This document shows, in pieces, positions 20,229 to 62,232 of a DNA stretch of 64,000 nt. Made by a program: the position numbers and the translations under genes. The stretch is taken from NCBI GenBank assembly GCA_902543375.1, contig CACBYE010000001.1, positions 163,862 to 227,861 on the forward strand. The letters run 5' to 3'. The stretch's first letter is position 1, and the number at the start of each line of letters is the position of its first letter. A model generated the notes under the pieces. That model did no database searches. It was not told the DNA's origin and saw nothing but the letters and a program-made list of their open reading frames with translations. This DNA comes from an uncultured Pelagibacteraceae bacterium (lineage in GTDB: Bacteria > Pseudomonadota > Alphaproteobacteria > Pelagibacterales > Pelagibacteraceae).

Positions 20229-20371
20229 CCCATCTGTATATTTGCCTGAGAGTTTTGCTCCTTCGGCGAGAATTAAATCTCTTTCCAGAGTTAATATGTT
20301 ACGGTCCTTTTTGCCTGAGAGATTCCTGGGTGGTTGCTCCTTCGGCGCTACGATAATCTGTAGTCTCTCCC
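20229..20371 (-). ncRNA. Tandem (two-aptamer) glycine riboswitch in gcvT leader
   Basis: Minus strand GGGAGAGAC...GCCGAAGGAGCAACC...AATCTCTCAGGCAAAAAGGACC, then a second CTCTGGAAAGAG...CGCCGAAGGAGCAAAACTCTCAGGCAAA. Confidence 0.95.
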
Positions 20372-20404
20372 GTAATTCAATATTCCTATAAGTATCTTAA
20401 AATG

Positions 20405-38729: not shown

Positions 38730-39344
38730 CTAATATCGTTGGGTAACAACAATTATTAACGCTATAATTACTAAAACACTCGCAGAGATTGTATTAATTG
38801 TTTTTGGATTTGCTTTTATCCATATTATTAATTTCTGAGCAAGAATTGCATAACCTATCAAAGATAAGAAATCTAAAACAATATAAGTTGTAATTAGTAT
38901 TATAAATTGACTTAAATAGTTTGAGCTAAAATCTATAAATTGGGGAAATATAAAAGGAAAAAACATCCAGGCTTTAGGACTTGTTCCTGCAACAATAAAA
39001 CCATCTCTAAAAAAAGATAAGTTGCTCTTTTTACTCTCTATTTTATTTTTTATGTCGTTAGGTCTAGACTTATAAATATCATAAGCAAGATATAATAAAT
39101 AAATTATTCCTATCCATTTAAAAATATTTAAAAATATTGAGCTTTCTGAAAAAAAGGATCCAATTACAAAGATTACTAAGGTTGCTTGAACTAAGTTTGC
39201 AGATACATCTCCTAGTGCAGACCATACACATCTCCCAACCCCATAATTCATTGAATAAGAGATAATAACGATTCTAGGGCTACCTGGAGTGATAAATAAA
39301 AAAATGATAATTTGTAAATAAAGAATAAAATCTAAGGGAAGCAT
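38730..39344 (-). CDS. LysE/RhtB family amino acid exporter
   Basis: LFITPGSPRIVIISYSMNYGVGRCVWSALGDVSANLVQ. Confidence 0.85.
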   Translation of the reverse strand: MLPLDFILYLQIIIFLFITPGSPRIVIISYSMNYGVGRCVWSALGDVSANLVQATLVIFVIGSFFSESSIFLNIFKWIGIIYLLYLAYDIYKSRPNDIKNKIESKKSNLSFFRDGFIVAGTSPKAWMFFPFIFPQFIDFSSNYLSQFIILITTYIVLDFLSLIGYAILAQKLIIWIKANPKTINTISASVLVIIALIIVVTQRY

Positions 39345-39345
39345 A

Positions 39346-39402
39346 TAAAAAAAAAGATAGTCCTTAAAAACCGGGAGCTAAAGATGGCTAAGAAGGACTA
39401 TC
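39346..39402 (-). promoter_or_regulatory. Terminator-like hairpin immediately upstream of LysE-type start codon (candidate attenuator/leader)
   Basis: Perfect 10-bp arms GATAGTCCTT/AAGGACTATC then T9 and ATATG on minus strand; extended -10-like TGATATACT just upstream. Confidence 0.5.
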
Positions 39403-39440
39403 AAAAGACAGTATATCAGGACCTAAAAAAAATGCATTAA
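39384..39440 (+). CDS. Putative 18-aa ORF MAKKDYQKTVYQDLKKMH (leader peptide or microprotein)
   Basis: GGGAG 6 nt before ATG; ends 26 nt before the DUF2805 ORF; start lies in loop of the hairpin. Confidence 0.35.
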   Translation: MAKKDYQKTVYQDLKKMH

Positions 39441-61562: not shown

Positions 61563-61619
61563 GATTGTTATTGAATCTCTTGCAATTACTTTTATATTAA
61601 TAAAGTTGGATTTCCAACT

Positions 61620-61863
61620 ATGACGATAAACGAATTTCGTAATAACCATTGCGGACGTGGGGGCAGTACCCACCACCTCCACCATTTACAACTTATGGGG
61701 GTGAACTAGATTCGACGAGTGACTAAAGGCTATTCTTTCGTTCGGAATTGTTCCTCCGAAAAGGGCTAATTTATAATTGCTAACGAAAGTTACGCACTTG
61801 CTGCTTAATTAACTTTGTTAATTAAGTAAACGGGGTCTGGGGCACCTGGCAACAGAACGCCCC
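61620..61863 (+). ncRNA. ssrA: Two-piece (circularly permuted) tmRNA: acceptor piece ending ...CCACCTCCACCA at 61684, 12-nt intervening segment, coding piece from 61697
   Basis: GGGGGTG (61697-61703) pairs with CACCTCC (61674-61680) with G3-U70; tag GCTAACGAAAGTTACGCACTTGCTGCTTAA = ANESYALAA*; P5-like hairpin 61806-61826; 5' limit approximate. Confidence 0.92.
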
Positions 61864-61924
61864 TTTTTTTTTAAATTATAATTATTTGGATTGCTTTTAT
61901 TTTTTTATTTTATAGTTTGTTCTT

Positions 61925-61987
61925 ACCATATCTCATGGTGAAAAAGAGGCCGATATCGCATCGGTGAAAAGCGAGTTTTGGAAAACT
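61925..61987 (+). promoter_or_regulatory. Structured leader: tandem 25-nt H-type pseudoknot candidates plus a third small hairpin, upstream of 63-aa ORF
   Basis: Units 61925-61949 and 61950-61974 with matching fold and compensatory changes; AGTTTTGGAAAACT at 61974-61987. Confidence 0.65.
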
Positions 61988-62001
61988 AACAAGGAGAGTG
62001 T

Positions 62002-62193
62002 ATGAAAAGAATGCACAGAGTACTAAGTTTGTTTAGCCGAGGCTCAAAAAATGCAAGGCTAAATCAACTTATGTTTCGGAACACAAAAACCATAAACGCT
62101 AATGACAATGGTACAAGCGGTTATGTAGTTAAAACAGGAAAAAATACTGGAAGAGTATTGGGACATATAAGAGGTAGGTCTAAAGTTATTTAA
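62002..62193 (+). CDS. Small basic protein of unknown function (63 aa)
   Basis: SD AAGGAGA at 61991-61997 then ATG; no family recognised. Confidence 0.65.
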   Translation: MKRMHRVLSLFSRGSKNARLNQLMFRNTKTINANDNGTSGYVVKTGKNTGRVLGHIRGRSKVI

Positions 62194-62207: not shown

Positions 62208-62232
62208 GGGGCATCTGGAAACAGAATGCCCC
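62208..62232 (+). other. Hairpin motif resembling tmRNA 3'-end motif (22/25 identical)
   Basis: GGGGCATCTGGAAACAGAATGCCCC vs GGGGCACCTGGCAACAGAACGCCCC at 61839-61863. Confidence 0.75.

Follow-up and report, generated by a model that had tools for sequence, protein, structure and literature searches.

The genome of an uncultured Pelagibacteraceae (SAR11) bacterium contains, within the 64,000-nt stretch analyzed here (the window), two directly adjacent RNA pseudoknots that form the leader of a small gene. Each is of the H-type, with the loop of a short hairpin pairing with its 3′ tail, and both helices (P1 and P2) of both units covary. The arrangement is that of a tandem cis-regulatory leader, with at least two copies located 5′ of an ORF with a Shine-Dalgarno (SD) sequence, on the same strand and at a conserved position. 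The pseudoknot structure and the leader role are well supported. As for its function, we favor, though with slightly less than even confidence, a tiny translational riboswitch of a new class that senses glutamine or nitrogen status; the ligand is an inference, without binding data behind it.

A two-piece tmRNA (61567–61866) is followed by a short transcription unit consisting of the pseudoknots, an SD, an ORF and a hairpin. The features, identified from the sequence unless otherwise indicated, are:

61886–61916, plus strand: weak sigma-70-like promoter, TTGGAT, 19 nt, TATAGT
61925–61949, plus strand: mini-pseudoknot unit 1, ACCAT-ATCTC-ATGGT-GAAAAA-GAGG, comprising P1 (61925–61929/61935–61939), loop (61930–61934), A-rich L3 (61940–61945) and P2 (61931–61934 with 61946–61949); also supported by covariation and descriptor scan
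61950–61974, plus strand: mini-pseudoknot unit 2, CCGAT-ATCGC-ATCGG-TGAAAA-GCGA, comprising P1 (61950–61954/61960–61964), loop (61955–61959), L3 (61965–61970) and P2 (61956–61959 with 61971–61974); also supported by covariation and descriptor scan
61991–61996, plus strand: Shine-Dalgarno AAGGAG, unpaired in the conserved structure and about 16 nt 3′ of the last pseudoknot unit
62002–62193, plus strand: ORF of a 63-aa basic small protein, net charge +13, family NGTxxYxIKxG (translation and homolog searches)
62208–62232, plus strand: GC-rich hairpin past the stop codon, at which the transcript probably ends

An initial sequence-only reading of this locus had claimed two adjacent 25-nt H-type pseudoknots at 61925–61974, with 16/25 positions identical between the units, differences confined to paired positions or the linker, and an SD and ORF downstream. 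All of these claims held. Seven of the nine differences are at paired positions (1–15, 3–13, 9–23 and the 25th base, opposite U7) and two are in the linker. The claim of a promoter-like TTGGAT...TATAGT held only in part, as the hexamer TTGGAT matches the consensus at 3/6 positions with a spacer of 19, and a consensus scan made no call at the window promoter. Relatives have stronger promoters at the same place (TTGACA, about 17 nt, TATATT or TATAAT), which end a few nucleotides upstream of unit 1. Transcription therefore probably begins with unit 1 or immediately upstream of it.

The hairpin at 62208–62232 is identical at 22 of 25 positions to the tmRNA 3′ hairpin (61839–61863). At a pnp locus (L050, L052), the tmRNA hairpin recurs in identical form after the small gene, with no tmRNA found nearby. 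Prophage insertion at the tmRNA is not supported as the source of this hairpin, since the pnp locus has the same hairpin and no tmRNA was found in the surrounding 19-kb stretch; BLAST searches against phages, with the tmRNA region and L166 as queries, gave no match. The likeness may reflect a shared terminator or a copied tmRNA end. Elsewhere in the window, an Rfam glycine riboswitch and rhtB sRNA motif are located on the minus strand (20292–20382 and 39338–39420).

A descriptor scan of both strands identified only one tandem in the window, at 61925/61950, while 120 dinucleotide-shuffled strands yielded two tandems in total, or ∼0.03 expected per 64-kb window on both strands. The pairing holds in 98.8% of pair cells across nine SAR11 leaders, and eight pairs have changed on both sides. 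In a wider set of 21 leaders from SAR11, another alphaproteobacterial family (f10) and viral contigs, 98.1% of pair cells are paired, with both-side changes in 11 of the 18 pairs. This set contains 72 double-change cells, compared to a shuffled mean of 20.1 (0/500 shuffles as high), and has a covariation score of 0.562, compared to ≤0.085 in slid controls. The homologs therefore support the proposal that an unknown small gene has a structured leader with covarying tandem pseudoknots; compensatory changes occur in all four helices. None of the outcomes named as counter-evidence occurred: compensatory change in homologs is strong, close relatives retain the second unit, and, as regards novelty alone, there is no match to any Rfam family.

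The module consists of a P1 of about 5 bp that closes in A-U/U-A, a loop of 4–5 nt with a terminal C, a 6-nt A-rich L3, and a P2 of 3–4 bp whose first pair is C-G. The constant elements are the A-U/U-A pairs by the loop, the last loop C that pairs with the first tail G, and an AAA preceding that G. These invariant positions lie mostly within the pseudoknot core and could be purely structural. Arrays contain two, three or four units. In one genus, an additional hairpin is found within the linker of unit 2, and in a relative (L236) the place of unit 1 is taken by a plain hairpin only.

A covariance model identified the leader in 74 of 397 genomes of the family, and it is also present in a second family of the SAR11 order (L137–L139). 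In f10, 21 of 32 genomes carry it 5′ of an ORF of 39–41 aa, and in genus g9 the gene behind it encodes a different protein, of 48 aa; the window's protein family is absent from these g9 and f10 genomes. A Methylophilales bin also carries the leader, possibly through misbinning, which we suspect because the neighboring genes resemble those of SAR11 genus g12. A stricter pattern found arrays of 2–4 units 5′ of ORFs of 29–66 aa in 29 viral stretches. Among 399 phylum and 290 class genomes, the module pattern matched SAR11 and f10 only, and the reversed pattern had zero matches in the same genomes. In nearly all cases, the array is located 20–40 nt upstream of an SD-bearing ORF, on a fixed strand. 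RNA model matches at L294–L296 and L187 are weak and were judged false. An implied link to tmRNA-fumC intergenic regions is corrected by these results: the motif is not specific to such regions, and travels with the small gene through unrelated neighborhoods and also in viral contigs.

A single-sequence search found homologs of the window ORF in 60 of 197 family genomes, and a profile search recovered them in 222 of 298 genomes of the order; the protein family is nearly universal in SAR11. The 63-aa family has no Pfam or NCBIfam match, and Pfam and PDB searches returned nothing credible (calmodulin EF-hand loop matches with E-values of 0.008–0.2 were judged spurious). It matches phrog_32989, a PHROG of unknown function, and is common in pelagiphages, usually leaderless and within late gene clusters. 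AlphaFold2 predicts a helix and a weak β-hairpin with a pTM of 0.35, and the model is therefore too weak for a fold search. The small gene sits in neighborhoods that differ among genera, such as downstream of pnp or upstream of an rlmN-like gene (both named from their sequences), and in these it is a stand-alone unit with its own hairpin, preceded in most by the tandem structure.

Most arrays lie 5′ of tiny basic ORFs of 29–66 aa from several families, with net charges of +5 to +13. The N-terminal basic helices of some of these peptides are alike (L303 and the window, L308 and L309; 0/500 shuffles as high). In cyanobacteria, glutamine riboswitches regulate a small protein that inactivates glutamine synthetase (PMC6316151). 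Homology of the array-linked peptides to IF7-like glutamine synthetase inactivating factors was suggestive by eye and failed shuffling and profile tests. No peptide matched the cyanobacterial IF7A family (NF052599) in NCBIfam, and alignments to an IF7A sequence that itself matches NF052599 at 2.7e-36 were no better than shuffles. As separate observations, a family of 38–41 aa peptides with a terminal ENRWGYK (L329–L408) is widespread in marine viral contigs and mostly leaderless. Additionally, TGCATA-like, DNA-operator-like repeats, up to three and spaced about 9–13 nt, occur just upstream of the small gene at L123–L132, L058–L060, L141, L061, L062 and L143–L145; the carriers are leaderless small genes 3′ of a probable A-type Fe-S carrier gene, plus some leader-bearing ones.

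Searches of the window leader against Rfam, at gathering and permissive thresholds, gave chance matches only (RT-17, RT-18). The glutamine riboswitch RF01739 had no match there by gathering or E-value search, and its conserved core GTTCA...GGAAGTAG...GAAGGAACGC is absent from the window leader, while present in L035, L149, L297 and others. There was no Rfam match to glutamine-II (RF01704), and no gathering-threshold match to preQ1-I, SAM-II/V or guanidine-III in the window or in ten array-bearing loci. A frameshift-stimulating pseudoknot is excluded, as the element lies upstream of the SD and start codon of the ORF, not in the coding region.

The connection to glutamine comes in part from other members of the same small-gene family. 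RF01739 lies directly 5′ of this gene in two SAR11 genomes (G012 and G040) and at 11 viral loci, with scores of 46–62 bits (cut-off 35). In genus g12, to which G012 belongs, three other genomes (G023, G032 and G048) carry mini-pseudoknots in place of the glutamine riboswitch. The two RNAs are also found in series on one contig:

L297, 3262–3430, minus strand: array and glutamine riboswitch upstream of Gcw_chp-amtB

Here, three mini-pseudoknots precede RF01739 (66.4 bits), followed by Gcw_chp and an ammonium transporter (PF00909, 1.3e-88), with no small ORF between the array and Gcw_chp-amtB. Divergent genes, which we take to be gltB and gltD from sequence and gene order, lie alongside. The use of the glutamine riboswitch by the same gene family and its co-location with the array at amtB are thus established, although the amtB association rests on this single contig, which may be contamination of its bin. 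Leader exchange and co-location favor, without proving, the view that the modules report glutamine or nitrogen status. As glutamine-riboswitch leaders occur as alternatives, the first suggestion of a likeness to tandem riboswitches of unrecognized class was a reasonable hypothesis; riboswitch status remains unproven.

In f10, both RNAs occur together in genomes at different genes, which counts against simple equivalence. The glutamine riboswitch lies 5′ of a CP_ATPgrasp (PF14403) gene in 11/11 f10 genomes examined (L415–L427). Likewise against equivalence, the second small-protein family (ENRWGYK) was predicted to lie under glutamine riboswitches as well and had none in 80 viral loci. In a separate MAG (G791), three identical glutamine riboswitch loci (L428–L430) lie among phage structural-like genes, perhaps reflecting a virus binned into the MAG.

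In the mechanism that we propose, transcription yields a short monocistronic mRNA whose 5′ leader is this element, a repeated minimal H-type pseudoknot module. Each module would act as a tiny aptamer whose pseudoknot is stabilized by a nitrogen-sufficiency signal, most likely glutamine; the stabilized array would change translation of the downstream ORF, and tandem copies would sharpen the response. The 63-aa basic protein of the window may, in turn, modulate nitrogen metabolism. Structure, covariation, tandem arrays, distribution and position before small ORFs are shown, while the ligand, the direction of regulation, the translational mechanism and the protein function are all inferences. Control is likely to be at translation or mRNA stability, since start sites are probably at the array and the SD is free about 16 nt after it. 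No terminator-like hairpin was found on the plus strand between the array and the ORF, nor was any conserved expression platform or switch partner identified, the SD being unpaired. An alternative hairpin (AAAAGU/ACUUUU) was rejected as a conserved platform, as it is present in some lineages only. A bolder reading, to which we give clearly less than even weight, is a third, structurally unrelated glutamine riboswitch class, whose module of about 25 nt may be the smallest aptamer known in nature, present in 2–4 copies in SAR11, a second alphaproteobacterial lineage and their viruses, where it would set the levels of small proteins that tune nitrogen assimilation.

The main rival, a serious and possible one, is autogenous control, in which the small basic protein binds the modules of its own mRNA as repeated binding sites and represses translation. 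In its favor, nearly all arrays precede a very small, strongly basic ORF, several of the peptides are alike in their N-terminal basic helix, and repetition of a simple structured element is characteristic of leaders that bind proteins, as argued for mini-ykkC (PMC2864571). Against it, the same RNA lies upstream of several ORF families, including in g9 and f10 without the window's protein family, the L297 array precedes Gcw_chp-amtB without a small ORF, most phage homologs are leaderless, and the same gene can bear a glutamine riboswitch instead.

A riboswitch for another ligand (an amino acid, nucleotide or ion), with the glutamine-riboswitch overlap being coincidental or a second input, is unlikely. 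The serial placement of the two RNAs at L297 and their joint presence in f10 genomes are as expected of two inputs; however, a shared signal is the simplest explanation for the exchange of leaders within one gene family and one genus. Similarly doubtful is a constitutive 5′ stabilizer or standby element that protects the short transcript or places the ribosome without sensing. The promoters of relatives, the free SD and the lack of a conserved switch partner are consistent with it, but the invariant A-U/U-A, loop C and AAA, together with duplication to four units, exceed the needs of stabilization, and exchange with a known riboswitch argues for regulation. An independent small RNA, or an element acting at the DNA level, with no part in controlling the ORF has only the variable gene neighborhoods in its favor and is very unlikely given the nearly fixed position and strand before an SD-bearing ORF and a P2 covariation that a DNA hairpin does not need.

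The leader is undescribed in the open-access literature that we searched, supplementary tables and subscription papers being outside that scope. SAR11 RNA surveys list other motifs (PMC2704228; main text of PMC6429828). For HTCC1062, Table 1 of PMC2704228 gives the tmRNA intergenic region as thyX-tmRNA-COG4696 and lists no small gene in it, and the survey's choice of genome would therefore have missed the leader. SAR11, among the most abundant cell types of the ocean, reportedly lacks PII and responds to nitrogen limitation without it (Smith et al. 2013, cited in PMC13198564 and PMC5120137), such that how it senses nitrogen stays open. If our reading of the leader as a glutamine riboswitch is correct, the module would fill part of this gap, would rank with the smallest repeated RNA sensing modules found in nature, and would point to small proteins, under the control of both host and virus, as a hidden layer. 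A conserved RNA module common to SAR11 and marine viral genomes, and exchangeable with glutamine riboswitches, is a directly testable candidate.

Several known RNAs resemble the modules in part. Tandem pseudoknots are found in the tobamovirus 3′ UTR and in cyanobacterial tmRNA; these are likewise small, H-type and head-to-tail, but differ in location and function and have no homology. The T4 gene 32 leader pseudoknot mediates autogenous control at the mRNA 5′ end by a nucleic-acid-binding protein (gp32). It is also a compact H-type pseudoknot at a 5′ end, although it is single and unrelated in both sequence and protein. H-type pseudoknots underlie the glutamine-II, preQ1-I, SAM-II/V and guanidine-III aptamers (PMC6698751). 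PreQ1-I, SAM-II, SAM-V and guanidine-III share with the modules a compact fold with an A-rich strand in the groove, but are larger, depend on class-specific residues that are missing here, and are not 25-nt repeats. Glutamine-II (Downstream-peptide, RF01704), a translational ON switch (PMC6698751), is a pseudoknot leader 5′ of very short ORFs in marine cyanobacteria; unlike the modules, it is a single aptamer of about 60 nt with other conserved bases. Glutamine-I (glnA motif, RF01739) has a three-way junction and a conserved core that are missing from the much shorter, repeated module. Despite these differences, it is also marine, can be tandem, leads the same small-gene family elsewhere, and stands in series with the modules at L297.
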